From Atriophallophorus winterbourni (taxonomy: Eukaryota > Platyhelminthes > Trematoda > Plagiorchiida > Microphallidae), in NCBI GenBank assembly GCA_013407085.1, contig JACCGJ010016190.1, forward strand, positions 1 through 64,000: DNA of 64,000 bases. Direction: 5' to 3'. Both the position numbers and the translations under genes were made by a program. The notes under the pieces were generated by a model. That model was not told the DNA's origin and did no database searches. It was given only the letters and a program-made list of their open reading frames with translations. Shown one piece after another: positions 6,038 through 64,000 of this stretch (positions are counted from its first letter, which is position 1; each line of letters begins with the position of its first letter).

Positions 6038-6072
<35 letters not shown>
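6038..6072. repeat. (AT)n microsatellite
   Basis: An almost uninterrupted alternating AT run. Confidence 0.9.
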
Positions 6073-6075
<3 letters not shown>

Positions 6076-7255: not shown

Positions 7256-7298
7256 TCCCTACTTGATGAGTGCAAACAGCACGAAACCGGTCGTGGTG
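7256..7298 (+). ncRNA. Type I hammerhead ribozyme, core mutated at C3
   Basis: The core UUGAUGA is at 7263-7269. Stem II GUGC/GCAC closes a short loop, then GAAAC, then CGGUC as the cleavage site and GUGG as the 3' strand of stem I. The C to U change at core position 3 should weaken or abolish cleavage. Stem III would be only ACC/GGU with no loop, which in known short-stem-III hammerheads calls for a dimer. Confidence 0.6.
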
Positions 7299-36077: not shown

Positions 36078-36278
36078 TCACAGTTTTTGTGGCACGTTTT
36101 TGAGGACATTTGTGAGGTTATGATAAAAAGTGTCTTTTTCAGCACCCGACGCAGAGAGCGTCGGTGCATAAACGTTGACCAACGTAGTGGTACAAGTAAT
36201 GCACTTCAGATTTAGAGGCCAAATCCGTTCGCTCACACTGCTTCTCGATTCTGCTGCTTTTAGTAGGTTGTTTCTCAC
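36078..36278 (-). pseudogene. RTE endonuclease fragment
   Basis: It reads KCITCTTTLVNVYAPTLSAS and EKDTFYHNLTNVLKNVPQK, aligned with the endonuclease of the copy at 1318-2094. The surrounding endonuclease code is frame-broken. Confidence 0.65.
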
Positions 36279-37471
36279 GGGAAAGCCAACTCCTTGCAGT
36301 CGAGCCTCATCACAACCCCTTCCTTTCTGTTTTCATACCAGTGTCTGTTAATCGCGTCTCTTGCCGGGCAGCCACGTCGACATTCAGTCTTTTCAGCTCA
36401 TTGTTAATAACAGCTGATTTTTTTACGCCTCTGATATTCGAAACCTCATCATGAAATCCTGGAAGCACGGACCGAACGTTCCAGGTTCCCAGTTTCAGAA
36501 GTGACCTTTGTTGTTATGTAATTCGTTTGGCTGGTGCGGAAAAATACAGTCTGCTTGTCGGTTGATACCTAATCCCCATTCAACCAATGAGGATAACAGA
36601 CCGTGGCGAGACGATAGCTTGTTGACTGGGGGCTGCCCAGTTTGAAGCGAGTGGTAGCCGTCAAATGATACCTGAAAATCTCTGCCACCGTCGGAAGCAG
36701 ATTCAGGCGCTGATCTCTACGCCACTTGTGTCATAGCTTTTAACCTGTATCTACTGCTACCCGTTTTATTTTCAGTAGAAGCGGAATGGTGTGTCCTCAC
36801 CTTTGGTGATTTGTAATGTCCGCCAGGGAATTTCAATTTAGGGAACTAGCTTTTTCTCATGCAGAAAGTGCTCCATCTCTACGGCACCACGGAAACCAAC
36901 GAAACAGCTAGACTGATACGTTTGGACAACGATGCTGTCAAAGGAGTTGGCAGGACGAAGTTGAATAAAACTTCGGATTGCATAACTGTACTCCCGCTCC
37001 GGATTTTTCCTCGAGGTTGACTTCTCAAGACGTTTCCATAATTGAATGTAGCCACAAGGCAGTGGAGGTTTAAGATAAGGGTTTTCCTTCCCCTAGGTGG
37101 ACCGCCTTCATGGACTTACGAGCTCCACCTGCCCGAAGCATGCTTGTTTTGAGGCGTCGGTCAGCCGGCATCGGCCTTTCTCTTGTTAGCAGAAGCAGTT
37201 CCGCCAGGTCACACATGACCACGCGTCCAGGCCAGGAGCTGGACTTGGTTGTCAGAGACTGTATGAGACGAGTGCCATTGGAGCAATTTTGGAATTGGAA
37301 GCGTATCCTCAAAACTGCCTCCGCCGTGACAACGTTGGAACCGAGTTTGTACATTTTTCTACCAAAGCTCGGTGCCATGAACATAAACGATAAACTAATG
37401 TAACATTCATTCTGCCAAGGGACATTACGCCGAGTGAAACGCATGTCTTGATAACAGAGGAAACTGAAACG

Positions 37472-45910: not shown

Positions 45911-48900
45911 AAGTTTTTCCAATCACCATAAGGGCTGCTGCAGGAACAATCCTTTGAAACAAGATTGTTGAGTCACTGGTAACACTGAGGAACACCCAAT
46001 GGTCGTGTGTTTGTCATGTACATACATGATCGACATTCAAAGCAGGAGGCCATCATCATATGTTAAGTTCAGTTGGTCGCTATGATTCATCTAAAACAAG
46101 CTCTAGGACCTTAGATCTCATAGTGAAAAATGGGGTGATAGCCAAGTGTGACAAAGTCAGGCTAACCGGGGGAAAATTACGTTCCATTTTCTAACGTCTA
46201 ATACGTTAGCTGCGCAGATTCAGGGTCACGATATCCAACAATTCTACAACAAATATTGGTCCGGTACAATTTTGTCGGAACTGGTAATGCCAGTATATAC
46301 ACCTTCATTCCGGTGTGTGTAAGGATATTGAACAAATGCTGTTTTAATAGTAACTGAATTCAATTATTAGAAGATCAGATTTGAGCAGCGAGTCGTGGGT
46401 TTACATGGTGATGTAATGGATTCAAAAACTACAAATTACAGCAGAAAATGTAGATTGAAACAAATATAATGAGGCAAAATAATACTATATCATGCAAGTT
46501 ATTGAAGATCAACTACGGTGTAAACTTTAATTGATAATTGTAAAAATCAGAATCATTAGCTGTAGCATGGAAATCTCTATCCATTTTGTTTTTTCAACCA
46601 CCTATCGTCTACCTTTGTCTTTTTGTATTGTGTCTCACATCAATGTATGTTACGCCATAGCCCTTCGATTTTTTTTCATGAGGCGCACTTTTGATAGTGC
46701 CCGTCACACTGTCCACCAATTTCGAACTCGAAAATGATTGAACTTTCTTTGAAATTGATAAAACATATTATTATTTGGGTGTATCTGGGAATCTGATTAT
46801 CACTAATGTAACCGAGAATTATTATTGGAACACCAATCGAGCAAAAATGCTGAGTGATGCAGACATATTTGTCTGACTACTTACTACGAGACGAGTATAC
46901 ACTCTCGAAATATGCTCAAGGCTGCTATCGTTTTGCTTCAATTTCAAATTCCTCCAAGATCACCATGGTAGTTAAATTGCTCGAATCCATCACAATAATC
47001 ATAATCAAGCAATAATTAATTCTTATTCACTGTTCGACCTTTAGTGTTTTATTTCCTGTGGTGCACATTGCTATATTTATATGTTAGATATGTCCCGAAT
47101 GATCCAACATTATGAATTGTGGTTGCGGACAAAACATCCTGGAATTAAGTTTTCCATACAATGTGAACAAATACTGATTAGATATATTTCACACATTTAC
47201 CAAGAGTCAGCAGCGTATTCGTTTAGTGTATATATAACCTCGCATTATTCAAGGAATATACTATATACTTGTGTGTTGAAAGTTAGAAATTACACGAACT
47301 CATTGTTAGGAATTGTGTACTCGAGTAAATACAAATTTTCATATTACATTAAATATTGACAATGAAACCTGCATTTTGACGCAGAACTAAATGGAATCGA
47401 TCGCTTCCACAGCAGTAATTTCGATCTATCTGTCTGCTTATATTCAACATGAAGTACATATTTTGACTTTGCACAATAGAACTATAATCAGTTTATTAAT
47501 TAAAGTGCCACCAACCAAAAATCACCATACCACAATTGGAATTTGTTCATTATCACACAAAGCAGCTCAATTTGACTGTGGTGTTATTACCGGTTCTTCT
47601 TGTTGAAGGTGGAATAGACGCTTCCTATACAAGATTCATGACTTTATTTCTGTACTGAAGGTATTGTGATGATAAAACAACTGTCCGATATCGATAGCTT
47701 TAGAGTGGCTTCGTTGTCACTCGATTTCAGTCAATATGAATGACCAAGATCTGGATATATCAAGCACATTGAGGTTAGATCCTCGCCATCAATGTAGCCA
47801 CATGTTGGTAGGCATCATGTTGGCATTATCAGATTCATAACACCGGTCGGAGAGTGATCTCCTTAAGCATCCGAGATTTAATTTTAGTCATCTCTGGCTG
47901 AAAACAAAACGGACACGTTTATATTTGTAAGCACCGCCTTAGGATTAAGATTGAAGAATTTATAACGTAATTTCACAATACTTTAATTCACAAACGTGTA
48001 TTGCAGTGTGCCTAGATGCGAGACAGAAAATCGCGAGTTTAAGGTCCTGATTAGAAACAGAGTGATTGAAATAATTCCGTGTGTATCTCCAAAAGATATG
48101 ACTTAACATGAGTTAACGACGGGTCAGCAAATCTAAACACGGCTCGTTTAAATTACTGAGAATGCACACTAAATTCGTTTCGCTTAAGTTTTGCCTATCG
48201 TTTCAGCAAGACGTTGTGTTATAATGTGTACAAGATCATTTTTATGAACAGGATAAGGTTGTGATTTTCCCAGAAAAGGAATTTAAACGAGATAATAATC
48301 ACCAAGCCAATCCACCAAATATTTTTCGTGTCACCCGTTAGGCTAATTGTTTAGTTTGAATAGAAATGGTGTGAGATATATCCTTACTAACTAGAATATT
48401 GGAAGATAAATGATTAGGAGGCAACTGAGTTGTATTGATAAATAACCTTTTATATAGTCTGCGGTAAAATGAACAGGACATGAGTATGTATCAGAGACTC
48501 ATCCACAAACCGAACAATTTGCGAGCATTTTTCAGACGAATAATTGATGTGTAATGTAACGATGTATTGTTAAGTTATCAAATTGTTTGGTCTGCCTAAA
48601 TGCCAGTTAGACAAATCCATCTAGTTTACCAACTGGAATACCAGTTGCTTGTTTCAGCGTATCGTTATCCACAGTCAGGTAAAACTTCGGAATTTTAAAC
48701 ACACATTTACGAATGCTGAATTTCATACGCATCTATGTTTTCTGATTTTTTCGGTCATGGTAGAACTCAGCCAAGTTTTCTCATATATTACATCGATTTA
48801 ATCTGAACAATTATGAATTAGTCAAATACATACACGTTATCGATTGACTGATTTTAACATTAAAAGCTTTAGCGAGGTTTATGTTCGCTTCAATGTTACG

Positions 48901-48940
48901 ACGTCCAATTAAATTCGTGAAATTATCAACCGTGACTAGT
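45911..48940. other. No gene seen; upstream flank of the MEG
   Basis: AT-rich sequence. A decayed tRNA-like stretch may lie near 48,005-48,060 (GCGAGTTTAAGGTCC). Nothing else supportable. Confidence 0.4.
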
Positions 48941-48954
48941 TTTCATGCCAAACA

Positions 48955-48960
48955 TATAAA
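48955..48960 (+). promoter_or_regulatory. TATA box of the micro-exon gene
   Basis: TATAAA in the context ACATATAAAGGCG lies 46 bp before the first ATG. A start of transcription about 25-30 bp downstream would leave a 5' UTR of only about 20 nt. Confidence 0.55.
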
Positions 48961-49005
48961 GGCGAAGTTGGTTGAAAGAACAATCCGGAGAAGATCGTTA
49001 GAAAA

Positions 49006-49066
49006 ATGATGTACCGACTGCTAGCAATCTTGGTTTTGATCCAGGTTGTATTTGCCATTATTCCGA
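49006..49066 (+). CDS. MEG exon 1: signal peptide
   Basis: Two successive ATGs start the frame, and the first was chosen because it is nearest the TATA box. It encodes MMYRLLAILVLIQVVFA, a short basic n-region, a hydrophobic core and a probable cleavage after VFA, followed by IIP. The 61-nt coding part ends A|GTAAGT, a consensus donor, leaving phase 1. Confidence 0.75.
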
Positions 49067-52000
49067 GTAAGTGTCTAGACGTAATTATTTTCATACTACA
49101 CTAGTAATTTACAGAAAAAAATATAAAAAGTTTCACAAAATTAATGATTTAAAATGATATAATCAACTTAGCTAATTGCTGCTACTTTCAATTGCTTTGA
49201 CACAATTTAACGAATAAGTTTTTTATCAGGCAAATATCACAATCACAATTGAGAGCTAGTATACAGAAAAATGTGATCTAATTGTGATAGAATAATCATA
49301 AGATAATACTAACCTAATTGATGTTAACAGAATGAACGAGATAATTCATACTGAGAGATAAACTGATGCTGGAATACATTTATGAATTACTTTTCCATTG
49401 AGCTATAGATTACTAATAACTAAAAAATATAATCGCCATTGTGGACCAATCAAACATTATAGACTTTGGAAATATTTGATTTTGAATAGACTTTTGAATT
49501 TTAACATATAACTATCCATTTAATTCGAAGGTTTGGATTTTGAAACTGGTAACAAATTGTCGGGGGTAAACTACATAAAAATTGCAATATTACTATACAT
49601 CGAAACTACTCATAGCGTGTAAACATTAGTAAGTAATCGTGAAATAAAACATTATAAATTTGAAGAATTTGGTGTAATGATGATATATTGAAATTTTTAT
49701 GCATAATTTAGGAAATGATGTAATTTAATCGTTTTATACTGCATTTTATTTCACCGTGTTCAACCTATATAACACATTTTAAAATTTACGCGATTGATAG
49801 CCTTCAATGAGGAAAGTGCAACATATTTGCAGTTAAGCACGATATGTGAACCTGACTGGTAAAAAATCACAAAGATATTTCACATTGTTTTTAATGTAGG
49901 CAATAAACGAACCTCACTACTTAACGTTAATACATTTTGCCAATATCAAGCGATTGAGTTTAGATTATATCAATTTGCAGTTAAATTATAGTTTCTACAC
50001 CAATTAGATTCAACAGATTTGCTTATGCGAAGAATACGTGAGTTGTTTCATTTTCTACAATATTTGGAACTGGAGCACGTTTTACGTCATTTTTATGTAA
50101 TCCTAGAAAATGTATCAGGACTATAATATTTGTCGACTAAATTCGCTTTATTTAATTATGATGTTCGTCATTTTAACGAAGCCTTACCAATCATTTAAAA
50201 GTCCGAAGAACACGCGCTCAACAAATATAACTGCTTTATGTTATGTATCGAAAGGATGGTCTCAAATCGTTTCCATGTGATACAACTTCGTTGCATTAAC
50301 AATTAGTATCTCCCACCGAGCCACTCACTCGCAGAATATATAGTACATATAATTGCTTCAATTAATTTTAATCAAATCTACGTGTATGTTATTTTATTAA
50401 TATTATTATTATATTAATCATTGTAAAACCAGTAAAACCATTAATCACGTTTTAAATTATTCATTTACGATATATAGTTTGTTATACTAAAACAGCGCAT
50501 TATTCTCTGAAGCTGTTTACCATTTTATTACATTTCAATATTGAATATCGAATTTAATATATGCACCAATCACAACCATATTTTTCCCACATCAATCTTT
50601 TAAAAGTACAGTTAACTTTGCATTTATTTCGCAATTTATTATCATATGAATTATTGAGGAAAAATAAAATTAATGAATGAATTGGCAACTAAAAAAAGGT
50701 AAACGTTAATATAGTGATCAAGACGACTCCAAAATCTAAATTTACCTCAGTTTAAGTTACCTATATCCCAAACAGAAGTTCCACTCTATGAAGCTCGAAC
50801 TATGAATATTACTCGTTCTTAGTCATTTTAACGGATTGTAAATCTATATTGTATACTATACTGAGAGGAGTCACATTTCAATTGTCATACTAGTTTATTT
50901 AATTTCAATTAAATTTTCAAATTTAATAAGATTTTCGATTGTACGCTCCCAGCAAACCTTTCTAGTGGATTTTAATGAGCTTGTCGAATTTTTTTGAACC
51001 TGTGTCAGAGGTGTTAAATAATCATGCATGCATTTTTTCACACATATACAACGAGTGTTCTCTTGGTGTTTGCACTCATCGGTTAGTGATAATTTAATTC
51101 GGAAGAACACACCTTAAAAATGGAGAAATGGTAGAGAGTGATTATATCTTCAAGGTGCTGTTGAATACTTTTTGTTTCTCCATTGTATCAAGTCATACGG
51201 ATCCCGAAAGAAGTATGCATACCTGATAAGTGCAAGCAGCACGAAGCCGGTCGTAGTGAGTGCAATGGAAATACATGCCAAGAAGAATCTTTATATAAAA
51301 CCATGAGATTAACATCATCTCCATATGTGTGGGCACATATAATTGAACAGGTTTGTTCCGCCAACCTAATCCAATTGTGGCTTTATAATTCATATCTTTT
51401 GTAATAGGAATTGAAGTAATTTCGTGGCATGCTACAATCTTTAAATTTTGCTGTTAAATCCAAGCAAAATATTTTTATACAAACCTCTAATATTAATACA
51501 ACCTCAACATTTTTCGCAGGGAAAATGGCAATCTCCGAAGGTTCGTTGAATTACTGTGCCAAATAACTAACATGATTCTCGATCAAGGTTGTTTCAGAAA
51601 ACTTGAAGTTACAGAAGAACAGATTACCAATAAAAAATCTGCTAAATATAGTAGAGCAAATTAATCAATATGCATGCGTATCCCGAGTGTACTGTCCTTA
51701 CCTGATGAATGCAAACAGCACGAAAACACTCGTGGCTCGGTATATGATAAAGATGCATTCAAATAATCATTTTCAAACCAAATTAAATTTATTGATGGCT
51801 AATTATAAAAGCGATCGCTTTCGCAACTTTTCACCTATGTGTACACGTGATGCAAAGTCATCAGATAAACAAAATTTGTAAATTGACCAATGGCTGATAA
51901 ACAATAACAATTGCATGAAACAGATACCAAGGAGAATTCACATTAACTATACAACGTATTGTATACGATTGCAAAACTGAAGAATCTTACTTATTGTTCG

Positions 52001-55000
52001 CCGCATCGAAAGATGTTCACTCTGTAATCAGAAAATGCTCAATTGAGTTCAGTTAAGCTCAGAGTTGAATTAATCACATAATTATCATACACTTCATTCT
52101 AAACATTAGAGTCACTTTTGCGACGTTTAGAATCATCACTGATACGTCCACGTGCTGAGAAATTATTCTACTTTTGATATGCACATGAATTTGATTCATA
52201 CGGATTAAGGGTAAACATTATTGTTAATCCTATGATGTTTACCGCCATGAAAGTTCTATTATTAATTATATGTGATGATTAATTAAAGCGGGTAGATTTT
52301 GATGCAAAACAAACTAAACAATAAGGAACAGGAACATTGATTCAACTTGTTGGTGTGTGGGATAAATCTGAAGAAGAAATCTTTTTGTCCCCATAAATAC
52401 AGGACCTTGAATATTACTGCATTCGCATAAATATTTACTTCCAAATAGAATGGATTTAACTATAACGACATTGGTTTCAACTTAATACAAACAAACAATT
52501 TGTATTTTATAAAAACAGACATCTCGGTGATCAAATGACTTTTTATAATAAAAAAATTACATTGAAATAGATCCAAATGATTCATCTTCATCTGGTAAAT
52601 TTAGAAATTACTTTTCATGAATAAATGAATGAAGTGTTAAATTTTCAAACTTTTGCGTTTTGTACCTTTTTAATCAATGGACATTTATTCTGTCTAATCA
52701 TACTTTCTCCACGTGATGACGACTAAAGTCAGTTGCAGTGTTACCCAAATGATTGCGTAATATATATTAAATCAATTTCTATTTGAATTAAACCTATACT
52801 TATAACTTGCTAATGAAAGGGCATTTATTCGCATACGTAAGTAATTAGAACCAATGATCTTAGTTGCTCAGCGTTCGGTATAATTTTCTAATCATTGAAA
52901 CAGTATAGAAGCTCGATGGCACAAACATGCTAGAAGAGTACCCAGTCTTTCGAGCAATGGCCTATATACTTGGTCATCAGTAAAATGTTCCCGAGAAGTA
53001 CGTGCAATCATTTGCTTTCCAGGGTCTGGAAACGAAGGAGAAATTTTTAAAAAGGTTCTTCCAGCAGTTTTTTTCAAGCTGCCAGTAATCTAGCCACACT
53101 TGTGGTTTTCAACATTTGCGTAGTCGATATATTAGTCTAAACCATTATGAGATGCTAAATCACAAAATATGCGTAGCATTTTAGTCGGTTGAAAATTGAA
53201 CATCAGTTTGATCTCATATGACCAGTTATGAAGTTGTCCATCAGAAATCGTTCATCTGGGCTATTGTTTGCTATCTATTTTTTCATAAGAGTACAAAACC
53301 TTCTTGCCATCATTTATTCTCCGTTGGTGGTTCATGTTCATTTCGATCAATATCGGTCGAACCACTAATATACATGGAGATCCGTCATTGACCGCAACAA
53401 TATGCAATATGGATTCAAAATTCAAGAATTTATAATATCAAAATCTTGTTGCTGTAAAACATCATATGATATTCGTATAAAGATAAAAAATGACAATAAA
53501 AAATTCAGGCACTCGAAAAATCGACGGTTTCGTAGTTAGATAAAAATGACATGTATTGTTTCCATATGATGGAAAAATATTCTTGAATATAAATGACCTG
53601 GAGAGTTGCTGAAATGTGTTATGTAACGGGATATAGTGTGAATTGTTAAGCATAAATATATCCAGTTTGTTCCTGAAAATCTCTTTCACTAGATGATTGT
53701 ACAACGTCTGGCGGTAATGAGTTCTTTAAAAAACAAACGCACAACCGCTATAGAAGAACCGACGACATTTTCGGTGAGAATTTGGGTTATCCAATACCAA
53801 CGTATGAGTGCGTGTGGTATGGCTTGACCGGAAGCAAAATAGACGCCTCTTTAAGTTTATTAGTTAATGAGTTAGGATTAGATCTAATCGAACCAGTCTG
53901 CGAGGCAGTGTGTCCAAATTAAGTTGAACCAGGCAATTCTAATATGGTAGGTTGCGGAGACTGCCCACCATTTTAGTTGCTCAGTGATAAATCCTCTCGA
54001 TCATCTTGATGTTCTTTTATAGCCCTGGTGCGCAAGTTCGCACTGAGTAATCAATCATTTTGGTAATATGTGGATTAAGGCGCAAGGGGAATGTTTCAAG
54101 AGAAAAAAACAAATATACGTCGAGGTATACTTAGCATGTGTCTAGCCCAGCTGTACATGGCTTCGTATTGCACGCTGTTCTTCAGACTTCCATTGATCCA
54201 AATGCTGAGGTCCTTCTCTTCTGTTGTCCGTTCCAGTTTATATGATCCAAGTTTGTGGATGAATGGAAAATCTTTACCTATTTGCAACATTTTGCACCTT
54301 CCTAATTTGAATGTTAGTTTGTTCCTCTGTGAACAGTTGTTGAATATATATAAATCACTCTGTATGTGCAAACAGGCAACCCTTGACTTGATTCGAATTT
54401 AAAGTTTAGCATCGTCCACAAAAAGAACCATCTTAGCTGTAACAAGTTTCGAAAGGTCGTTGATGTAAAACAAGATGAACCGGGTAATGTATCAAATCCT
54501 GTGGGACACAGCTAGACCATTCTATGTCCCTAGTCATCTCACCGTAGATGCGTTCAGTTGCCTTGCGTTCAAAATCGTAGCTTCCCAGCCAGATAGAAAT
54601 GCACACACTAGCTTTATCAGGAGAATAGAATGGTCCCCGCGATCAGATGTTTTAGATATGTTCAAGTAACACGGAAGCACGCAACCAAACACATCCACTC
54701 CCTCATACAGACATTCATTGTCTCCAATAGGTTAGTCATGCAAGAACGTGACTTCCTAAAACCATGTTGCCTTCTGGACAACAAGTTTAGGTTTTCAAGA
54801 TGACTCTCGATTAGTTCACACACAAATCGCTTCATAACTTTCGAGATAAATGAAATGAGTGCATCATGGTAACGGAGAACATTTTATAGCAATCGTGCAT
54901 TAAACTAATGATACCTTGTCCACTTGAATGATTATTGCAACATGCTTAAACAACGCGTTTCATTATTCATGAAATTTATGAAATTTTTTAGCAACAAAAT

Positions 55001-58000
55001 ACACGTGAAATTTGAGTTGAAAAATCGAAAAAAAGCAAATATGTTTTCAAATATTTAAACATTTCTCAAGTTATAAAGCTTTTCGATAATTTCAAATCAG
55101 ACTTGCAATTTCTTACTTCTGAACAATGACTCATGTTATGAATATCAGAATTTTCATCCATGCCTCTCCCATTTGCCAGTCGATGTTATTGCTTTTGTTC
55201 AATATTTATCTGAGACAGCGAGTGTGATTGATTAATTGTCAAAGTCAAGAATTGACTCAACCCACTTTAATAAATGTTCATTGAGGAGAGATAGCAGAAG
55301 GCTGCCGCAATTATTTTTCGCAAACCAGTTTCTACACATTTTAACCACATGTACGCTGATATAACGAGATTAAATAAACTTCTCAAATGTTCCACCCAGG
55401 ACTGGATAAAATTTGTTTGTTACCTGATGTTGAAAGGATATCCCATGAGCTGCTTCAAACCGATAAATTCATAGCTTTGGAATATCATTCAACACACCCG
55501 TCATTGAAAGGCTATCAGAACCGATATCTGATAATTAAGTCAATATTTTATAATTTTAAATAAAGTTTATACAAAACAAAGTTGGAACATTCAGTTATAT
55601 GAAGCGATTGTATGCAAATAAGGAATTGAATTGAGATTATGTTCATATATTAAAAATATTATTATGTTATTTTCAGTAACAACGGACGAATTAGAAGGTA
55701 CTATTTTACTGAATTTAAAATATCTGTTTAAAAAGAAGTTTTATTATTAATATTAAATTCATATATATATAAATATTATATATATATATATATATATATT
55801 ATGTTATAATCTATATTAATTATTAGGGAAAAGTATAAACAATTTATTTTCGTGTTCAAATACCCATCCCTTACATGACACACCATGTCAGCAGCAAAAT
55901 ATATTGGTCGTTTAGAAGGGCCTTGACTGCTTGACCAAGAATTACGTTGTGATTATTTATTTTAACATTGTGGTTGTTTGTGAGAACCCTGTTTAACAGT
56001 AGCATACAAGTTTACCGTTGTTTATAATTAATCTATTTTTCATCTTTTGTGGATAACTGGTAAAATTTCAATTGAAAAGACTGACAAACAAGAGCATCTA
56101 ACATCTACTCGTAGAAAATGACTGGCGCTGAAAATGCTGACAGTTGAAGCGCAACACACACGGAGAGAGATGCTAGTGTCTTATTAAAAAAACCAATTGA
56201 CCTTTTATTCGCTTCATCTCCGATTTACAACTCCCTAATAAAGTACGAAATCATAGTTGCATTAGAGTATATCAATTATCCCAGTTGCGCAAAAGTAATC
56301 AAACAAACGTAAGCTGGCTGTAATCATTCGATTTGCGGCGATTCGATGCGATACATAAAGTCAATCGATGTTAATCGACAGAAAAATATTTTTTATTAAA
56401 TAAATTTCATAAAAAACTTCTTTTTAATACAAATTTCAGATAAAATTAATCTGTGGAAATATTTGGTTTGCTAGTCACCCCAGTTTATAAACAGTTTTAC
56501 TTTTCCCTGACAGTAGCAACTAAATACAATGAGCATTAATGATAGAGCTAGCAACATTTAAAATTATTTTCATATGATGTATTTTCAAAATCTTTTCTAA
56601 GTTTTTTGTCTTGCGAAAACAAACTTCCAAGAATTCTCAATATATGATATTTGTAATATCGAAAGCGTGTAGGACGTACAAATCTTGTTGACTTCCAAAC
56701 ATGCTACAAATCAAGTAAAATCAACACCGTGGCTGGGTGACTGCAAACGGAAAAAATGTTTGAAAAAATTGACGTTAATCACGCTGTATCAAATGGAAAC
56801 GAAAGAAATGAAACTTAACATCGTTTGACTGCATTTTATGGCATGGTTAACATCAATGAAATATACATTCTGGTTAGAGACTTTTCATTAAGCTTTAAGC
56901 AAGAAATCATTTCAACAAAAAATGAAAAACGATACTAGCTCATTCAATAGATCACATCTGGATAATAAACGCTAACTTTCACATACTACCACAAATGCTT
57001 AGACAGCCTATAAAACTTCCATTCCGGTAAAATATTCAACATATTTCGGAATATTTCAAAGAGTCGTACAAAGTGATTTTAAAATAATTGAGAACATTGT
57101 TAAAAATAATCGGCAATTTTTATTCTGAATAAAATAATTTTACACTCATGACATATAGATATGAATCGTTGTTTTTTCAGATGTATCCTCGATTTCTGAA
57201 ACAGATGATGATATATTTCAAATAGTTTCGCCACTACGTATGTGAAATTTAAAACTATATGTTTCATTGAGTGGAATATTTGAACTGCTATTTCGCAACT
57301 CATTTCAATTTGAAGTCTGAAAAATATCATCAAATTTCATGTCGTTGATAGCCACATTCAGATGATGTCGACCTTGGATGTACATCACCAACGCATGTCT
57401 TTTTCATGCTCAACAGTTTTCAGATGATATAGCTCCCCGATTCGGAAAGAACGATCACCTTAAAGCAATTATTAAGGGAAAAATAGTTTATTTAAAAAAG
57501 CAGGAACTTTTCATTGATATCAAACAACATTAATGGAGATAAATACTAAACGGTGAAGATGAATATGAGCAGTTATACAAATAATACGGCCAGACCATGA
57601 GACATGTTCCAAGAATTTGGTGGATTAATAATTCACGAAGCAGCATAAACTACAGTTCGGTCTTGAAACTGTTTTGCAATAGTTAGGCACTTTGAACCTG
57701 ATGCTTATTACAAAATATTTTCTTTCAAAACGTTTGGAAATCTTCCAAACATGTCGACAAATTATCCTATATTTTAATTTTAGAATTCATGATTCGTGAT
57801 TATTTTTTTATGTTGTTAACTTATCTGGAAACGACTATTTTCAAGAAATCCAAATGCGCTTTACTTTGCTAATAATAATCAAACTACTTCTTGAAAACAA
57901 ACGCTAACTTATGAAAACTTTCTTTATAAATCGATTAGATTTTAGTGTTATCATATGAATATTTCATCGTAAAACTGGGTTCCAATAACAAAATAGAATT

Positions 58001-59502
58001 TATTATACTTCTCACTATTATTATGTGCATCTCACAAAATAAACGTTTCGAAGAGGTGATGGAAATTCTCGATATAACACACCAGATGGTGAGCAATATT
58101 CAGCTGAATACATTTAGTTCGATAAACACAATGTTTTAAACACTGGAACTCTTCAAAATTTGATGAAATGCATCAGCTTTGAAACTTTGTTGCAATGTTT
58201 CGGATCCTGATGAAGTTGAAATTTATTATTGTAAAGCTGATTGCATATCATATTCTAAGATTCGAAAACCTTCAGATGAATGGAGACTTTAATCTTAGCA
58301 TCTGTGGCGTGAGAGTCATAAAAGTTTCGAATTAAAACTTCATAGTTTCAATTTATATTGCAATAAGAATTATACTAATTTAAACTACATATTCACTCAG
58401 CCAATGGCATGTCATTGATCAACATTATTAATTCTCTAAATTTCTGCGTATTAAATCAGTTGATATCAAGTCATACTAATCTTTTCATACCTTATTTATC
58501 TACTTTAAATGGTATGCCCAATGAAGTGTCAAACTTGGAAAAAAATAATTTAGCTATGGGATGTTTTCTGATGGTTAACCTTAATGCTTCCGATGAATTT
58601 ACAGCTCGTGATGCCTTTGTACGAACTACTATACTAACCTCAGAGTTTCCGTACGGTATATCAGCACTTTGTTTACCAATATTTTGAAAGAATAATTTTC
58701 CACTGTTTCAAGGCTCACTGAACCTGATCTTACGTTCTCCACCTGATGACGGCAAACAGCCAGAAACCGGTAGTGGTGTGTAAGGGATGGTGATGTGAGC
58801 ACAACACATTACATAGGTATGGGATTTTTTCTGATGATTAACCATAAGTCATCCGATGCATTTACACTTCGTGATGACTTTCTACGAACGTCTATGCTAA
58901 CCTCAACGTTTCCGTACGATATATCAGCATATTCTTCACCTATATTTTGAACCACTTTATATTATTATTCAGCCTCAGTAAACATCAGTTTGTAATTGTC
59001 TGCAGCTGCCCAAGCATTTTTCTGCGTCGTATGGATTCTAGTTACTGTATTAATTCGATTTATTTATGTGGGACTGCAAACTTAGAGGACCTGTTAAACT
59101 TTAAGTTGCTTTTTAAATTTTTATCGAGTATGGAGGTCGTACATGCTATAGAACAATTCTTAGTTCTGTGAAAAATCGCAAAATACTCATTTATTGGAGA
59201 TGTTCGCGTGATGACACTCTAGTTCAAGTAGTAGTCGGTCACACTATATAATTATATTAATAACATATACTTCTTTCCATTCTGTAAGGATAATTACACA
59301 TCTAAACGTTTTCGAAAAGGAACTAGTTTCATATATTTCCTCAGAGCCTTACTCCAGATGCAATCTTGTACACTTGATTTAGTGTTTTTCTTTTTTCTTT
59401 CAAAGACGTACTGCATGCTTTCAGCAACACAACTCAGACAAGCATAATAAGACGAAGATTGTAATAGAGTATACTTTTCAACTTTTACTATATATATAAT
59501 AT

Positions 59503-59533
<31 letters not shown>

Positions 59534-60952
59534 GCTCGATACAATTAACATGAACATGATCCAAAACAAAAACTGTTTTGTACCCGATTTTCTGTTTAGC
59601 ATTTCTTTGAAGGTATCGAATCAACTGAAGTATCAATTGAGTTAACAGATGATAGCCCGAGTCCATATTGGTCGGTGTCCTAACCGACAAATTGCGAAGA
59701 CCGTTAAATTTCTATACAAATGAAAATATGACAAATTCGTTTTTAGGTGATGAGGCCTTGTTATACCAAATGTAACTCTGCATTCGACAGTGTTATAAAC
59801 ATAAGTTTCTAAAAGCTTATCTGCACCTCTTTCTCTCTCTATATATATGTATGAAACATTTCCAGTTTAGTTCATCCGGTGTTTTGAACTCAAAATTACT
59901 TCAAGCCAGATATTTATTAATTATTTAATAATTTAGTTATTACTATGACTATGCCGATCGAGAAATATTTGATTGTTATTCAGCATCTATCTTATACCGA
60001 CATTATTTCATAATAATTTACCAGCTTCAATAAGTTCTCCAACACCGTCACGAGGTATGAAAGCACATCAGATTTACTCATCCACCTGCACATTTATATA
60101 TTAATACATTTGAAGGATTTAATAATGTGGCTAAAAATTCAAATCGATAGTTTACATTTTATCTACTCATTTCGCAGTATTCACTATATCTGCTGTATAA
60201 TGTACTACCAATTAATTACATTGATGTGAGTTACCGTATGTTGAATGGTACACCAAAGCGAAAGAAGTAACATTGTTATTCAAGTTGATTAGAAATTGGG
60301 GTACTTGCTTGTAGTGCAGCTAGAAAGCTAAAAAAAATTTGCAATAAATAACCCGAAATAAATTTACACCCTGTGCTAAATTTGGAAGAAATTCTTGAAA
60401 TTGATACCGAATTATATCTGGTAACACTTAGTGGCTTATCAGTTGCTAATTGTTTCCTTCTGGATTATATAACATCAAAAAATATAAACAAAACTGAACC
60501 AACCAGGCTTGATCAATAAATCTCTCAAATATTATAAGCCTATAATTCTAAATCAGTTAGACTAATCACTCATTTCTGAATACTTTTTCAATTTTATCAT
60601 TCCCGTTTAATAAACAGAATTTCAACTATATTCTTTGAATAGTAAGCAGGCGAAATATTTGAAATTCATGGGAACTGTTCTGCGAATCGTTACACCAAAA
60701 TCCTTGGAGATATAAGTTTGAACAAAAAGTGTCTACACGTTGATCGCAATAAGAATAAACCACTCAATCGGTTTAACGGACACGGGAGGAAGAATATGAT
60801 GATACATACATTTCAGATCAGAAGATAGTGAATCTTAAATATTCACACAAACGTAATTTATTAAATTTTGGGTAACTATAAAATATTTCCTCTACTAATT
60901 TTTCATAAATATCATATTAAAGGTTCTCAACGATCACGATCACCCACCCCAG
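49006..60952 (+). CDS. Micro-exon gene (MEG-like), secreted protein; multi-exon, 3' end not found
   Basis: Exon 1 encodes a signal peptide and ends in phase 1 at a GTAAGT donor. Downstream lie short segments between AG and GT whose lengths are all multiples of three and whose phase-1 frame is open. The best are 49,531-49,548 (18 nt), 50,017-50,037 (21), 51,520-51,540 (21), 52,571-52,594 (24), 55,677-55,697 (21), 57,181-57,237 (57), 57,784-57,795 (12), 60,025-60,054 (30), 60,618-60,641 (24) and 60,923-60,952 (30). Such symmetric tiny exons define schistosome MEGs, which make secreted, exon-skipping variant proteins in glands or tegument. I do not recognise which MEG family it is. The terminal exon is unresolved. 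Individual exon calls are weaker than the overall pattern. Confidence 0.65.
49531..49548 (+). CDS. MEG candidate exon, 18 nt
   Basis: Bounded by TAATTCGAAG and GTAACA. In phase 1 it encodes (S)LDFET and ends in G. The acceptor has only a moderate pyrimidine tract. Confidence 0.4.
50017..50037 (+). CDS. MEG candidate exon, 21 nt
   Basis: Acceptor TTCAACAG and consensus donor GTGAGT. Phase 1 gives (D)LLMRRI. A second acceptor 9 nt upstream (CACCAATTAG) would extend it in frame to 30 nt, adding three residues. Confidence 0.55.
51005..51400. repeat. Inverted pair of hammerhead-repeat fragments in a MEG intron
   Basis: About 51,010-51,175 is a minus-strand fragment (CATGCATTTTTTCACAC, TTTGCACTCATCGGTTAG). 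About 51,180-51,400 is a plus-strand fragment with core CTGATAAG (G8 changed to A), GAAGC and CCGGTCG, then TAATTGAACAGG. Both cores are mutated. Confidence 0.6.
51520..51540 (+). CDS. MEG candidate exon, 21 nt
   Basis: Strong acceptor CATTTTTCGCAG and weak donor GTTCGT. Phase 1 gives KMAISE plus flanking half-codons. It lies between two hammerhead-repeat fragments. Confidence 0.45.
51640..51780 (+). repeat. Hammerhead-repeat fragment in a MEG intron
   Basis: TATGCATGCGTATCCCGAG, CTGATGA at 51,702-51,708, a short stem II, GAAAA and CACTCGTGG. The first core box is intact, but the palindromic stem III (normally ACCGGU) is altered. Confidence 0.5.
52571..52594 (+). CDS. MEG candidate exon, 24 nt, DPNDSSSS
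   Basis: Acceptor ATTGAAATAG and good donor CTG|GTAAAT. Encodes an acidic, Ser-rich block typical of MEG proteins. Confidence 0.5.
52892..53077 (-). CDS. Unassigned minus-strand open frame
   Basis: 61 codons reading FPDPGKQMIARTSREHFTDD and QVYRPLLERLGTLLACLCHR. Composition looks protein-like but I recognise no family. It lies in a MEG intron on the opposite strand, and could be a mobile-element scrap. Confidence 0.2.
   Translation of the reverse strand: MKKTAGRTFLKISPSFPDPGKQMIARTSREHFTDDQVYRPLLERLGTLLACLCHRASILFQ
53460..54950 (-). mobile_element. Degenerate CR1-like LINE in a MEG intron
   Basis: Minus strand: 54,096-54,371 reads KLTFKLGRCKMLQIGKDFPF and TEEKDLSIWINGSLKNSV, aligned with NLAKCKMLQIGKSLHH and AEKDLGIWVSFNLKPG of the intact-looking element. 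The C-terminal region follows at 53,460-53,800 and RT-core remnants lie at about 54,400-54,850. Many frameshifts are present. Confidence 0.7.
55677..55697 (+). CDS. MEG candidate exon, 21 nt, VTTDELE
   Basis: Strong acceptor TGTTATTTTCAG, donor AAG|GTACTA. Like the 21-nt exon at 51,520 it ends with GAAG. About 160 nt downstream begins the intronic block that recurs after the exon at 60,923. Confidence 0.6.
55763..55799. repeat. (AT)n microsatellite
   Basis: Interrupted alternating AT run shortly after the 21-nt MEG exon. Confidence 0.85.
55860..56060 (+). repeat. Intronic block, copy 1
   Basis: Shares with 61,070-61,260 the ordered landmarks CATCCC..TTACA, ATGTCAGCAGCAA (GTGAGCAATA), TTGACTGCTTGACCAA (TCAATTGCTTGATCAA), TTGTGATTAT, GAGAACCCTGT (AAGAACCCTGT) and a following T-rich tract. 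Confidence 0.5.
57181..57237 (+). CDS. MEG candidate exon, 57 nt, acidic
   Basis: Very strong acceptor CGTTGTTTTTTCAG and strong donor GTATGT. Phase 1 gives DVSSISETDDDIFQIVSPL. It is the longest internal exon and the best supported. Without splicing the frame stops three codons after the donor. Confidence 0.65.
57365..57470 (-). mobile_element. RTE 3'-end scrap
   Basis: GATGTCGACCTTGGATGTACATCACCAACGCATG and CCCGATTCGGAAAGAACGATC match the last ~100 bp of the RTE copy at 62,790-62,890. Confidence 0.65.
57784..57795 (+). CDS. MEG candidate exon, 12 nt
   Basis: Very strong acceptor CTATATTTTAATTTTAG and moderate donor GTGATT. Encodes FMI plus half-codons. Confidence 0.35.
58556..58950 (+). 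repeat. 261-nt tandem duplication containing a hammerhead
   Basis: 58,556-58,687 and 58,817-58,948 are the same length (132 nt) with about 20% differences and no indel, for example TTTCCGTACG and ATATCAGCA in both. The hammerhead lies between them. Differences fall on all codon positions (about 7, 10 and 5 for positions 1-3), so the open frames in both copies are not evidence of coding. Confidence 0.65.
58733..58785 (+). ncRNA. Type I hammerhead ribozyme, intact core, GUA cleavage site
   Basis: CUGAUGA at 58,743-58,749, GAAA at 58,763-58,766 and GUA at 58,770-58,772. Stem I is perfect, CCAC (58,739-58,742) with GUGG (58,773-58,776). Stem II pairs GGC with GCC, with a mismatch at its base. 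Stem III is ACC/GGU with no loop. Confidence 0.65.
58951..60024. other. MEG intron; (AT)n at 59,488-59,532
   Basis: AT-rich intronic DNA. Several strong AG acceptors occur (for example 59,599 and 59,746), but none is followed by an in-phase symmetric exon. Confidence 0.4.
60025..60054 (+). CDS. MEG candidate exon, 30 nt, SISSPTPSR
   Basis: Acceptor CATAATAATTTACCAG and donor GAG|GTATGA. Same length and Ser/Pro/Thr/Arg bias as the exon at 60,923, suggesting exon duplication. Confidence 0.6.
60618..60641 (+). CDS. MEG candidate exon, 24 nt, EFQLYSLN
   Basis: Acceptor CCCGTTTAATAAACAG and strong donor ATA|GTAAGC. Open in phase 1. Confidence 0.55.
60923..60952 (+). CDS. MEG candidate exon, 30 nt, SQRSRSPTP
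   Basis: A branch-like CTACTAATTTTT precedes ATATTAAAG, and the donor CAG|GTAAAT is strong. In phase 1 it encodes GSQRSRSPTP and ends in G. The GC-richer codons stand out from the surrounding AT-rich intron. Confidence 0.65.
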
Positions 60953-61050
60953 GTAAATAACATGATGTATATCTCTATGGATATTGAATGAATCTGATAA
61001 ATACATGTAAATGTATCCTTAGTAAATTGTACAAACTATTTTCTGTTTTA

Positions 61051-61102
61051 AGTAATGTATTACTCACATCCCCCGCACTTACAATGTGAGCAATACATTA
61101 CT
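61051..61102. repeat. 19-bp hairpin
   Basis: Arms at 61,051-61,069 and 61,084-61,102 are reverse complements with one mismatch, around a 14-nt loop. Located 98 nt after the 30-nt MEG exon. Confidence 0.75.
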
Positions 61103-61260
61103 GTGGCCATCCATAAGCGCCTCAATTGCTTGATCAATAATCACTTTGTGATTCTGTGTTTGAACATCGTGGCTCGTTGTAAGAACCCTGTGTGAATGTG
61201 GAATTCAAGTATAACTTTGTTTTCTATTTTAGTTGTTGCAAAATTACTATTTTTGAATGG
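61070..61260 (+). repeat. Intronic block, copy 2
   Basis: Second copy of the block at 55,860-56,060, again just downstream of a MEG micro-exon. Same orientation. Confidence 0.5.
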
Positions 61261-61324
61261 TTCATTTAGAAATCAGCTTTGTAGTAACTCCCTCAACGGA
61301 AGCGCCGGAATAGCAGATATATAA
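61233..61324 (+). CDS. MEG possible later or terminal exon
   Basis: Very strong acceptor TTTGTTTTCTATTTTAG. The phase-1 frame reads VVAKLLFLNGSFRNQL and runs to TAA at 61,322-61,324, which would make it a terminal exon. Splicing at GTAACT (61,284) would instead give a symmetric 51-nt exon. Caution: the region belongs to a block also present at 55,860-56,060. Confidence 0.25.
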
Positions 61325-61714
61325 ATAATAAATTATTCGAGCAATGGTTTCTACCGGAGTGAACATTTGCCAATATCTCAAAGCAACGTCAGAAAATCCC
61401 GTACGCATGGATAATGTTAGAGTTTTGAAAAGAGACAAATATGAGGAAGGAATTCGTAATAAAAATACGTGTGCTAAAAAATACTTGTGACGCAAACAAG
61501 CGCGCAACAGAAATTTCGTGCATTGACTAGTTCTTCGTGCACTAAAGGGAAATAGATGTGAAGAACTTGTATGTCGGGAAGAAGTAACCGCGCTATTCAC
61601 ATTCAAACTGTAACTTTTAAATTTACCAATGTGTGTTTGCCGATGGAATAAAGTAGATAATCTTGCATACATTGAGCTAAACCCGTTCGAAAGCACTAAA
61701 TATTTGTAAGTCAC
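61262..61714 (-). CDS. Unassigned 150-codon minus-strand frame
   Basis: The longest open frame outside LINEs. Contains SSRHTSSSHLFPFSARRTSQ, then LRHKYFLAHVFLLRIPSSYL. No domain recognised. Local base composition is less AT-rich, so it may be a young repeat or mobile element in the MEG intron. Confidence 0.2.
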   Translation of the reverse strand: MTYKYLVLSNGFSSMYARLSTLFHRQTHIGKFKSYSLNVNSAVTSSRHTSSSHLFPFSARRTSQCTKFLLRACLRHKYFLAHVFLLRIPSSYLSLFKTLTLSMRTGFSDVALRYWQMFTPVETIARIIYYLYICYSGASVEGVTTKLISK

Positions 61715-62340
61715 AATAAGAAAAGAACGGATCAGCTAAGTCTTTAAAAGAAAAAAACCAGGGTAAAAATGCCGCTATCACTAGTTGAACACTTTGTATA
61801 AAGTTCCAACATGTAGACTATTCATCAAACCAACAAAAATAGTCAGAACCAGTTACAGTTAGTGATGAAATATTTAGCTAATTCTAGATATTTACTGGTG
61901 TTAAATCCTTTCGCATCACAAAGGATTTGAATGAAGTTGAATAACATTACTCCCGAATGTGAACTATGTGATGAGTATTCCTCCGTTCCGTAAACGAAGC
62001 GCTTGACTTATGACACACCGTCAACTGAAGTTTCCAGTTATCAGACAATTTTAAATATTTACAAATGACCATAGTTCGGACACATGCCGATCTTTTTTTC
62101 ACGCAGGATCTACAGTCACATTTACAATCTGGTTAGAGTTTGTCACAACAGATAGTCATCTGGTATCAATTACATGAGCAATAATAGAAAGTTTAATGCG
62201 AATGTCTAATGATCTCATTCCGCATGGGATTGATCAGACAGCAGCAGAATAACTGAAATTGTAGGAGTATCTGATAAGGATGGAGTCTTAATTTCATTTC
62301 TGACTTCTCTGGCAACTTATCTTACTTTGATCAATGTCAG

Positions 62341-62376
62341 CTCAAGTATTAATTAAAAAAATCGCATTCTACTATT
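62341..62376 (+). CDS. MEG possible exon, 36 nt
   Basis: Acceptor CTTTGATCAATGTCAG, donor ATT|GTACTA (same donor as the exon at 55,677). Phase 1 gives QVLIKKIAFYY. If real, the gene extends toward the RTE at the window end. Confidence 0.25.
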
Positions 62377-62712
62377 GTACTATCTATCGCATCGACTGGT
62401 GACCAACAAGCAATTGACTTTTACACAAACGTAAAATTGGCCTCACATTTCATCCCCTTTCGCTGTTCTTATTGAAAACAATATTATAATTTTCGAGTAA
62501 TTATGGAGAACGACAAGATGCATATGTTCAGTATTAACGCCGGTAAAATGGTCATTGCATGGTTCTTCACGACACAAACGCGTAATTGTTTTCTTTGTAA
62601 TGCATCTATCAGATAGAAATAACACAATGAAATAGTAATCATGTTTTGACGAAAGCCACTATGTTATATTATTTGGAAAGACAACTTATTCAATCACGTT
62701 GAAGTGCGTTCC

Positions 62713-63123
62713 TTATGAGAATTCACGTTCTCGCGCAGTTTCGCATTCGCGGTCCATCTCTCTCTCTATATATATATTGTTGTTGGCCTCCGTCGGTCGA
62801 TGTCGACGATGGATGTACATCACATCGCATGAATTCCATGTTTTGCGGCTTTTTGAATGACTAAACAGTCCGATTCGGAAGGAACAATCTCTCCCGCAGC
62901 GCTTGCAATGATAGTCAGAACCCTGTTGTATTGCATCAGTTGCACGCCGGCGGCGTGATCTGCGTTCAGCAGCCAAGAGCTGTATTTGCTCCCCCCCCCC
63001 GGCTTGCAGACGACGCTTTACACAATGCCTCCAAAGTGAGCGGTCAAGAGCAAGTTCTTCCCAGCTTGCGGGGTCAATGTCAAGAGCTTTCATATCTCTT
63101 TTGCAAACATCTTTGTACCGCAA
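62713..63123 (-). pseudogene. RTE C-terminus with Cys/His motif
   Basis: MRYKDVCKRDMKALDIDPAS, WEELALDRSLWRHCVKRRLQ, then YHCKRCGRDCSFRIGLFSHS. The C-x2-C ... H spacing resembles a zinc finger found at the C-terminus of this RTE group. The final residues after about 62,780 are read-through into the simple repeat. Confidence 0.7.
62757..62776. repeat. Simple repeat at the RTE 3' end
   Basis: CT/AT-rich dinucleotide tract immediately beyond the 3' end of the RTE copy. RTE elements commonly end in short tandem repeats. Confidence 0.6.
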
Positions 63124-63497
63124 GTGCGGTCTGCCAATGGTCGACTTCCTAATTGCAACTCACCGTAGAGTAGATCTTTCGGAATACGACCATTTTCCAT
63201 TCTATAGACATGACCAAGCCACCGCAGGCGGCGCTGACGTAATAGGGTGAACATGCTCTGTAGACCAGCTTTTGAAAGCACTTCAGCGTTAGTCACTCTG
63301 TCCATCCACGATATGTTCAAGATACGACGGATGCTTCGTAGATGGAAAGCATTCAGCTTCCGTTCGTGTCTTGCGTGGGTGGTCCAGGTTTCACTGCCGT
63401 ATAGTAAAGCATTTAGTACGCACGCGCTGTATACCATCATCTTTGTCTTTACAGTCAGCTTGCGGTTACCCCAAACACGAGAGTTCAATCGGGACAA
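63090..63497 (-). pseudogene. RTE post-RT region
   Basis: MSRLNSRVWGNRKLTVKTKM, VLNALLYGSETWTTHARHER, MDRVTNAEVLSKAGLQSM and RRLRWLGHVYRMENGRIPKD. This segment is highly typical of RTE elements. Confidence 0.8.
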
Positions 63498-63593
63498 AAT
63501 GACAGCTGCTCTGCCAATCCGCTTATCAATCTCCGTTTCTAGCGAGAGGTTATCCGCAATGGTTGAACCAAGATATGTAAAGTGATGTACTGG

Positions 63594-63818
63594 TTAAAGC
63601 TGACAGTTTCCAACAGTGATGATTGGTGGCGATACAGTTCCTTGACCAAGGACGTTGGTCTTGCTCATGCTGATTGTTAGGCCAAAGTCTTTGCATGCCG
63701 ACGAAAAACAGTCCATTAGCGACTGTAGGTTCTCTTGGGAGTGAGTAATAAAGGCTGCATCGTCGGCAAACAACAGGTCACGGATTATCACATCCCGTAC
63801 TTTGGTTTGTGCTCTCAA
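63594..63818 (-). pseudogene. RTE RT core with FADD
   Basis: MRAQTKVRDVIIRDLLFADD, AAFITHSQENLQSLMDCFSS, ACKDFGLTISMSKTNV. FADD is the catalytic box of reverse transcriptase. The frame stops at 63,594 within the following region, so it is interrupted. Confidence 0.8.
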
Positions 63819-64000
63819 CCGGTTCAGGTTGAAAAGCTTGCCATCACTTCGCGTGCGTATGTAAATGCCTTCTGTTCTCGTCCTAAAAGCGTGCTTCAGA
63901 AGCAGAGCAAAGAAAATGCCGAACAGTGTGGGAGCAAGAACACACCCTTGTTTGACGCTTTGGCGAATTTCAAATGCTCCTGAACTGCAACCTTTAAAAT

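Follow-up and report, generated by a model that had tools for sequence, protein, structure and literature searches.

The locus lies on the + strand of a 112,202-bp contig, of which the window, i.e., the whole stretch of DNA analyzed here, covers 64 kb. A TATAAA box was seen at 48,955–48,960, as the earlier note had claimed, and about 46 nt downstream an ATG at 49,006 opens an exon of 61 nt (20 codons and one extra nucleotide) that reads MMYRLLAILVLIQVVFAIIP and runs to a donor at 49,066. The signal-peptide exon ending in A before GTAAGT, which had also been claimed, is directly present, and it was first in hydrophobicity among the 32 listed ATG-to-donor candidates from both strands of the 112-kb contig, which include many overlapping entries of one simple repeat and, as two entries, exon 1 and its alternative start. 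Its signal-peptide status was judged by hydropathy. Self-BLAST of the contig revealed a tandem duplication composed of unit A (55,108–69,206) and unit B (69,230–83,959). The features located in the window are listed below.

48,955–48,960, + strand: TATAAA box, promoter candidate, seen in the sequence, with the first ATG about 46 nt further on
49,006–49,066, + strand: exon 1 of gene 1, predicted signal-peptide exon, with a phase-1 end before GTAAGT
51,179–51,262, + strand: SINE-like repeat in intron 1, kin to the repeat holding a sub-threshold hammerhead match at 7,257–7,298
55,108–64,000, + strand: in-window part of unit A, from self-BLAST and alignments
55,677–55,697, + strand: predicted micro-exon, 21 nt, TTDELE (copy B at 69,990–70,010, PTGELE)
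57,181–57,237, + strand: predicted exon, 57 nt, VSSISETDDDIFQIVSPL (copy B at 74,533–74,589, LSSISKRDDDIFQLNSPQ)
58,698–58,812, + strand: SINE-like repeat of the same family as the 51,179 copy, between exons 57,181 and 60,025
60,025–60,054, + strand: predicted micro-exon, 30 nt, SISSPTPSR (copy B at 76,388–76,417, PKNSLSPSE)
60,178–60,225, + strand: uncertain segment, with strong splice sites kept in both copies, not phase 1
60,923–60,952, + strand: predicted micro-exon, 30 nt, SQRSRSPTP (copy B at 77,261–77,290, SQRSRSPSP), acceptor weak in both copies
62,777–64,000, − strand: LINE-type retrotransposon inserted in unit A, running on to about 66,838 on the contig

From 49,006 onward, the + strand probably carries the 5′ part of a flatworm, probably trematode, micro-exon gene, in which six short exons of 21–57 nt, with triplet lengths and in phase 1, would form a cassette downstream of a promoter and signal-peptide exon. 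We consider it probable that this gene starts at 49,006 and uses the exons listed, with its first half inside the window. The 64-kb window does not reach two further cassette exons (67,605 and 68,762), the second exon set, or the candidate last exon (84,794); the gene limit previously placed at 62,376 was abandoned, as the predicted gene continues far past it. The tandem duplication would have copied the cassette, most likely within one gene, and a single transcript may span both cassettes before the frame probably ends in the last exon near 84,794. The model predicted from the sequence comprises 14 exons, of which 12 are consecutive internal exons of 21–57 nt, all multiples of three. Its candidate last exon (18 codons, acceptor score 6.2, AATAAA 11 nt past the stop) was the best in 82.4–97.5 kb, and alternative ends are offered by the acceptor pairs 62,107/78,295 and 60,178/76,503. 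Read in phase 1, the segment 60,178–60,225 reaches a stop after six codons in both copies (by eye from the alignment), and it is a possible alternative last exon.

The earlier note had based its proposal on a property shared by six named segments, and the AG/GT bounds, the length divisible by three, and the open phase 1 were each verified for all six. The property itself is background, since the interval contains 269 segments of 12–57 nt that possess it on the + strand and 268 on the − strand, and its chunk shuffles gave a mean of 240 (50 shuffles). These counts favor the view that ordinary intronic or intergenic AG..GT strings were picked by eye, some of which remain in copy B because the units have diverged by merely ~14%; we regard this view as quite improbable on the evidence that follows. 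Under strict splice thresholds, five pairs pass in the interval, one of which (60,025) was among the named segments. The duplicated part holds five of the six named segments, and for four of the five (55,677, 57,181, 60,025, and 60,923) the AG and GT bounds, the length, and the open frame are all preserved in copy B. Such retention alone is merely suggestive, and agrees with chance picking, because 64 of 159 segments of this type (40%) are retained there anyway (p 0.09). The other two named exons were not upheld: 60,618–60,641 is broken in copy B, where the acceptor is absent and an in-frame TAA occurs, and 50,017–50,037, a segment not included in the duplication, is preceded by a weak acceptor (−1.5). 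A segment at 59,406 was also rejected as an exon; its acceptor is very strong, but unit B contains an in-frame stop, and a usable donor is absent. Frames at 51.2 and 51.7 kb that looked cysteine-rich by eye proved to be pieces of the SINE-like repeat family.

Splice-site pairs conserved between the units were ranked with hand-made weights, not trained on this genome. Among the best 10 non-overlapping + strand AG..GT pairs of 12–100 nt conserved in both units, six were of triplet length and open in phase 1 in both, compared with a baseline of 76 among all 804 conserved pairs and with none of the best 10 on the − strand. When the length was limited to 12–60 nt, the + strand gave 7/10 (binomial p about 0.001, with a baseline of 20% for non-overlapping pairs) and the − strand 3/10 (p 0.29). 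The latter agrees with chance picking, whereas the concentration of the best + strand pairs in phase 1, an asymmetry between the strands seen directly in the DNA, argues against it, as do the first rank of the signal-peptide exon among the listed contig candidates and the occurrence of a second chain on the same contig. Of the six best-scoring conserved + strand pairs, five had lengths divisible by three.

The second candidate, gene 2, runs on the opposing strand from 109 to 97.6 kb, where a signal-peptide exon is joined by five strong micro-exons that share the phase of gene 1. At a splice score of at least 6, 7 phase-1 pairs fall in its region, whereas eight control stretches predict 0.8; the region was picked after its chain had been seen. 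This test is given little weight, and the same holds for the retained picks above, the acceptor ranks, and the Fisher tests against the rest of the contig. Six of the 10 strongest + strand acceptors (2,161 AG sites in 48.95–90 kb) belong to the predicted model, although these scores had a part in choosing the model, and two of the six represent one exon in its two copies. With both units counted, a comparison of gene 1 with the remainder of the contig gave Fisher p values of 0.007 to 0.045 depending on threshold. In unit A alone the enrichment over the control stretches was modest, with 4 pairs against 1.1 expected at a score of at least 6 (p 0.03) and 1 against 0.6 at a score of at least 7 (p 0.46); G+C is higher in those stretches (0.40) than in the locus (about 0.33).

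All six exon pairs of units A and B keep their splice dinucleotides, length, and phase and are free of stops, as read directly from the alignment; at such divergence, the absence of indels and stops across 189 nt is weak evidence. Exons differ at 28 of 189 sites, which is about equal to the 1,111 of 8,229 sites over all aligned sequence, and dN (0.161) is close to dS (0.166), giving a dN/dS of about 0.97, so that purifying selection is not visible. This absence of constraint fits fast-evolving secreted peptides but would also fit no gene, the similar divergence of exons and overall sequence being what chance picking would also give. A micro-exon gene that was formerly functional and died recently, now being neutral, would likewise account for a dN/dS near 1, and the LINE and SINE-like insertions throughout the locus agree with it; this explanation appears about as improbable as chance picking. 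The intact dinucleotides and open frames of the six exon pairs weigh against gene death, and the exon pair 67,605/79,489, which shares the motif RSRSP with exon 60,923, is identical over 30 nt, which would be expected approximately 1 time in 14 from its flanks. Moreover, S. mansoni MEGs are reported with elevated dN/dS and transposon enrichment (PMC4350168). Exon 60,025 differs from copy B at 12 of 30 sites, compared with 41 of 258 in its flanks.

Whether the units belong to one gene is a separate and non-exclusive question, since an arrangement of two tandem genes is compatible with the core claim of a micro-exon gene. Each unit would then be a gene copy or decayed copy with its own last exon, unit B having no first exon. 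Strong acceptors followed by in-frame stops occur in both copies at 62,107/78,295 and 60,178/76,503, those at 62,107 and 78,295 opening onto an open stretch that may be the own last exon of each unit, and published MEG families form tandem clusters (PMC4350168). Exon 1, however, was present once in the genome (its only match at E ≤ 1 was itself), unit B begins about 24 nt past the end of unit A without a promoter exon, and the best last-exon candidate lies 0.8 kb past unit B with no copy between the units. Two genes thus seem unlikely, though less so than chance picking or gene death.

For the preferred reading, a single micro-exon gene containing both cassettes, every internal exon is predicted to be symmetric and in one phase, so any subset could be spliced in or skipped with the frame intact, and one gene could consequently secrete many related short peptides. 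These products, if transcribed, variably spliced, and secreted, would be serine/threonine/proline/arginine-rich and probably disordered, and they may act at the host interface. The available part of PMC7653826 defines a micro-exon gene as one with at least seven exons, of which at least half are micro-exons (less than 70 nt, length divisible by three), with runs of at least four, and the predicted 14-exon model would fit this definition. The class also has a long 3′ flanking exon that holds the stop codon, for which the 18-codon exon at 84,794 is the best candidate. With the stricter size of under 36 bp given in the available part of PMC4671649, 10 of the 12 internal exons fall within the limit, and the two 57-nt copies exceed it. 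Further marks of the class were found in exon 1, which by hydropathy holds most of the signal peptide at the 5′ end, in the symmetry and single phase of the predicted internal exons, and in the high dN/dS, a value that absence of function would also give. The locus looks like a new example of an already known kind of gene, the flatworm micro-exon gene.

The schistosome-MEG design proposed earlier was borne out in part: a signal-peptide exon and symmetric phase-1 micro-exons spread over kilobases are backed by the tandem duplicate, whereas two of the six named exons lack support, the predicted gene is longer, and the stressed property alone is background. As far as the available parts of PMC10526429, PMC4350168, and PMC4671649 describe S. 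mansoni MEGs, the locus resembles them in the 5′-exon signal peptide, runs of symmetric micro-exons, long introns, short secreted products (here predicted), SINE/LINE-rich surroundings, fast protein change, and clustering. It differs in an intron 1 of 6.6 kb (0.1–5 kb quoted for S. mansoni), in a six-exon cassette apparently duplicated as a block, and in an organism that seems to be outside Schistosoma; similarity to any named MEG was not found. S. mansoni MEG families are numbered 1 to 32, with gaps. Tapeworm MEGs of Hymenolepis microstoma and Echinococcus multilocularis share the structural definition, and one tapeworm family grew by tandem duplication, according to the available part of PMC7653826; the N-terminal motif printed there for one H. 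microstoma family is absent from exon 1 (by eye), and the lineage differs. An effect of a MEG product on host cells is shown by MEG-8.2, from the esophageal gland of schistosomes (PMC12998952, as far as available), which shares with the locus the general class of secreted micro-exon proteins, here predicted. In MEG-8 members the last exon encodes a conserved hydrophobic C-terminal domain (PMC5825161), whereas the candidate at this locus is both short and hydrophilic, which leaves no justification for transferring function from MEG-8.2. No homologue of the gene-1 and gene-2 chains was found in a protein collection that seems flatworm-poor (a reverse-transcriptase query gave 49 listed proteins, one with an organism name, Schistosoma), so this absence says little. 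Neither chain matched Pfam, and the gene-1 chain had no match in PDB.

A wider reading, in which a trematode other than Schistosoma carries an opposing pair of micro-exon genes, one with a six-exon cassette tandem-duplicated inside the gene, is tentative, at somewhat less than even chances. If it is true, micro-exon arrays grow by block duplication, and the locus documents, at the level of the genome, how variability arising from splicing is built up, with 60,025/76,388 rewritten far faster than the flanking introns and 67,605/79,489 frozen. If the gene is real, it shows that a micro-exon gene, a kind that gene finders see poorly, can be picked out of raw sequence when coherent phase, a signal-peptide exon, and a tandem duplicate are considered jointly. 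It would also offer exon-by-exon rates relative to neighboring introns within one genome, and place micro-exon genes probably outside the genus Schistosoma. The available part of PMC7653826 assigns high priority to curating such genes across flatworm lineages.

Rfam gave nothing at the gathering score in the 64-kb window and nothing at E ≤ 1 in 48,900–62,400, and the repeat copies at 5,600–6,400 gave a single unrelated match (E 3); the hammerhead link of the SINE-like repeats thus depends on the one sub-threshold match at 7,257–7,298 in a related repeat.

The organism itself is probably a trematode other than Schistosoma, judging from a thioredoxin glutathione reductase (TGR) exon of the genome. 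As a single 77-residue query against PDB, this exon scored about 121 to 123 bits with the nearest TGR entries, which we take to be schistosome, and was approximately 78% identical to them over 76 residues by our own count. Mammalian TrxR followed at 115 bits, about 7 bits behind the nearest entries, and an entry at 114.5 bits is presumably Echinococcus. For a flatworm origin, the sub-threshold hammerhead match was considered alongside this exon. A GST search led to what we read as an EF1-gamma-like gene, and a histone-deacetylase search returned generic HDACs.

The region from 48,951 to 62,376 had been proposed in an earlier note as a schistosome-type micro-exon gene (MEG), on the strength of a TATA box, a signal-peptide exon and at least ten tiny segments, and the opening elements of the proposed gene were found as claimed. 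The TATA box was present as TATAAA at 48,955-48,960, and the ATG at 49,006 started a 61-nt exon of a predicted signal peptide (MMYRLLAILVLIQVVFAIIP plus one base), which ended at 49,066 and was followed by GTAAGT. This exon, accompanied by its TATA box, was the most hydrophobic of 32 listed candidates, drawn from both contig strands, in which a hydrophobic stretch occurs together with an ATG and a donor; it was listed twice among them (alternative start 49,009), and it occurred only once in the genome search. All six micro-exon segments named in the note were likewise present as described. Their common property, namely AG/GT borders, a length that is a multiple of three and an open phase 1, proved to be at background level as evidence: between 49,067 and 62,376, such segments of 12-57 nt numbered 269 on the + strand versus 268 on the - strand, and 50 chunk shuffles averaged 240. 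When strict splice thresholds were applied to this interval, 5 pairs passed, one of which (60,025) was among the named segments. The MEG claim therefore needed other evidence.

The contig is 112,202 bp long, and the window covers its first 64,000 bases; the assembly totals 537 Mb in 15,840 contigs. A query consisting of exon 57,181 plus adjacent sequence detected a second copy at 74,482-74,622, which was 84% identical and located on the same contig and strand. Self-comparison of the contig delimited a tandem duplication of two units.

55,108-69,206, unit A
69,230-83,959, unit B, wholly beyond the window

The identity of the two units was 82-92% by aligned segment, and LINE-type insertions interrupted each. 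Since unit B lies entirely outside the window, it could not have been used in naming the segments. All AG..GT pairs of 12-100 nt kept in both aligned units were ranked by the lower-scoring copy, using hand-made donor and acceptor weights. Among the best 10 non-overlapping pairs of each strand, 6 on the + strand and 0 on the - strand had a length divisible by three and an open phase 1 in either copy; the overall value for conserved pairs was 76/804. The best 20 pairs contained 8 such cases on the + strand versus 3 on the - strand. With the limit set at 12-60 nt, the + strand gave 7/10 (binomial p ~0.001), including one pair (55,180-55,221) that is not part of the gene 1 model, and the - strand gave 3/10 (p 0.29). 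Gene 1 denotes the candidate starting with the exon at 49,006, and its duplicated exons are as follows.

Exon pairs of gene 1 (unit A / unit B, + strand) and their predicted peptides
55,677-55,697 / 69,990-70,010, +, TTDELE / PTGELE
57,181-57,237 / 74,533-74,589, +, VSSISETDDDIFQIVSPL / LSSISKRDDDIFQLNSPQ
60,025-60,054 / 76,388-76,417, +, SISSPTPSR / PKNSLSPSE
60,923-60,952 / 77,261-77,290, +, weak acceptor, SQRSRSPTP / SQRSRSPSP
67,605-67,634 / 79,489-79,518, +, RKRWRSRSP in both copies
68,762-68,782 / 82,417-82,437, +, KREQNK / KRKQNK

Four of the five named segments inside the duplication were kept in unit B; 60,618-60,641 failed to survive there and was rejected as an exon. Two of the best conserved pairs were off phase 1, 60,178-60,225 (phase 0) and 62,107-62,131 (25 nt); the counterparts in unit B lie at contig 76,503 and 78,295. 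The splice sites of these pairs were strong in both units, and the pairs may represent alternative last exons or noise.

The six exon pairs differed at 28/189 sites versus 1,111/8,229 for all aligned sequence, and gave dN 0.161 versus dS 0.166, so that no sign of purifying selection was visible on these exons. High dN/dS is described as characteristic of MEG coding regions in excerpts of PMC4350168; neutral DNA would be expected to give the same picture as the near-equal dN and dS of gene 1. The pair 60,025/76,388 differed at 12/30 sites versus 41/258 in its flanks, and 67,605/79,489 at 0/30 versus 26/300, tiny numbers that are suggestive of exon-specific rates. In a gap-free 30-nt window scan, the 60,025 window ranked sixth among separate low-identity places, and its divergence is therefore not unique.

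The strongest + strand acceptor within 82.4-97.5 kb led at 84,794 into a phase-1 end of 18 codons, with AATAAA 11 nt downstream of the stop; this end is likely, at low certainty, the last exon of gene 1. The predicted model has 14 exons across 36 kb. In unit A alone, 4/7 segments with a splice score of at least 6 were phase-1 multiples of three (expected 1.1 from the control stretches used for gene 2 below, p 0.03), and 1/3 at a score of at least 7 (expected 0.6, p 0.46). Gene 1 was regarded as a predicted flatworm micro-exon gene, a kind already known; the proposed MEG stands as a prediction, with its segment list corrected and the gene extended past the window. The anatomy of gene 1 and its conservation are visible in the sequence. 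We infer its expression, exon skipping, secretion, site and function along the following lines. Exon 1 would send the product into the secretory path, and because every internal exon is symmetric and of one phase, the spliceosome could retain or leave out each one while preserving the reading frame. With its twelve internal exons, gene 1 could encode many related peptides in which S, T, P, R, D and E are abundant, and the duplication would represent a doubled cassette. Searches of proteins and Pfam with the predicted chains of gene 1 and of an opposing candidate, gene 2, and of PDB with gene 1, gave no homologues; the protein collection appears flatworm-poor (a reverse-transcriptase query listed 49 proteins, one named Schistosoma), so that missing homologues say little.

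The candidate gene 2 lies on the - strand beyond the window, with five strong micro-exons in its chain; L016 denotes the corresponding piece of the contig.

108,957 to 108,891 (L016 4957 to 4891), -, candidate signal-peptide exon
108,013-108,045, -, 33-nt micro-exon, phase 1
107,174-107,188, -, 15-nt micro-exon, phase 1
104,990-105,025, -, 36-nt micro-exon, phase 1
101,500-101,523, -, 24-nt micro-exon, phase 1
100,301-100,333, -, 33-nt micro-exon, phase 1
97,660-97,740, -, possible last exon, an 81-nt segment that also reads through to a stop, AATAAA close by

At a splice score of at least 6, 7/10 non-overlapping segments of this region were phase-1 multiples of three (expected 0.8), and the Poisson p of ~2e-5 is optimistic because the region was picked after the chain had been seen. 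One of the seven (108,046-108,075) is outside the chain. The control consisted of eight stretches (129,214 strand-bases, G+C 0.40) on different contigs of this genome and gave 9/47. MEGs are reported as clustered in portions of PMC4350168 and PMC10526429, with which two opposing chains on one contig are consistent. Within the gene 2 region, the + strand also carried a 27-nt segment, open in phase 1 and flanked by very strong splice sites, at contig 106,910-106,936 (L016 2910-2936).

Copies of a SINE-like repeat family and of one LINE-type element were located.

SINE-like: window 7257-7298, 51179-51262, 51672-51766 and 58698-58812; L016 5777-6236
LINE-type, ~80-94% alike, - strand coding: window 1-2857, 34646-37342 and 62777-64000

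The SINE-like family was found in the gene 1 introns and also at 7.0-7.3 kb, and one LINE-type copy sits within unit A. The SINE-like copy at 7,257-7,298 matched the Rfam type-I hammerhead with E 0.007, under the gathering score; the other searched copies gave no match to it. Hammerhead-bearing SINEs are described as enriched near S. mansoni MEGs in sections of PMC4350168.

Histone-deacetylase pieces occurred on the contig pairs C1571/C8220, C8862/C13612 and C8613/C9835, where scores and match ranges were the same or almost the same within each pair; alternative haplotypes may be retained in the assembly, so that its copy counts are possibly inflated. The best PDB matches of the TGR exon of this genome were 22fc and 22ey (named thioredoxin-disulfide reductase), followed by the thioredoxin glutathione reductases 2v6o, 2x8c, 3h4k, 8pdd and 4la1 (121 to 123 bits), and at lower scores by mammalian thioredoxin reductases (115 bits) and 5w1j (114.5 bits). 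We take 2v6o and 3h4k to be S. mansoni TGR entries, 4la1 to be from S. japonicum and 5w1j from Echinococcus. The identity, counted from the alignment, was ~78% over 76 residues, which argues, by a small margin in one exon, for a trematode outside Schistosoma.
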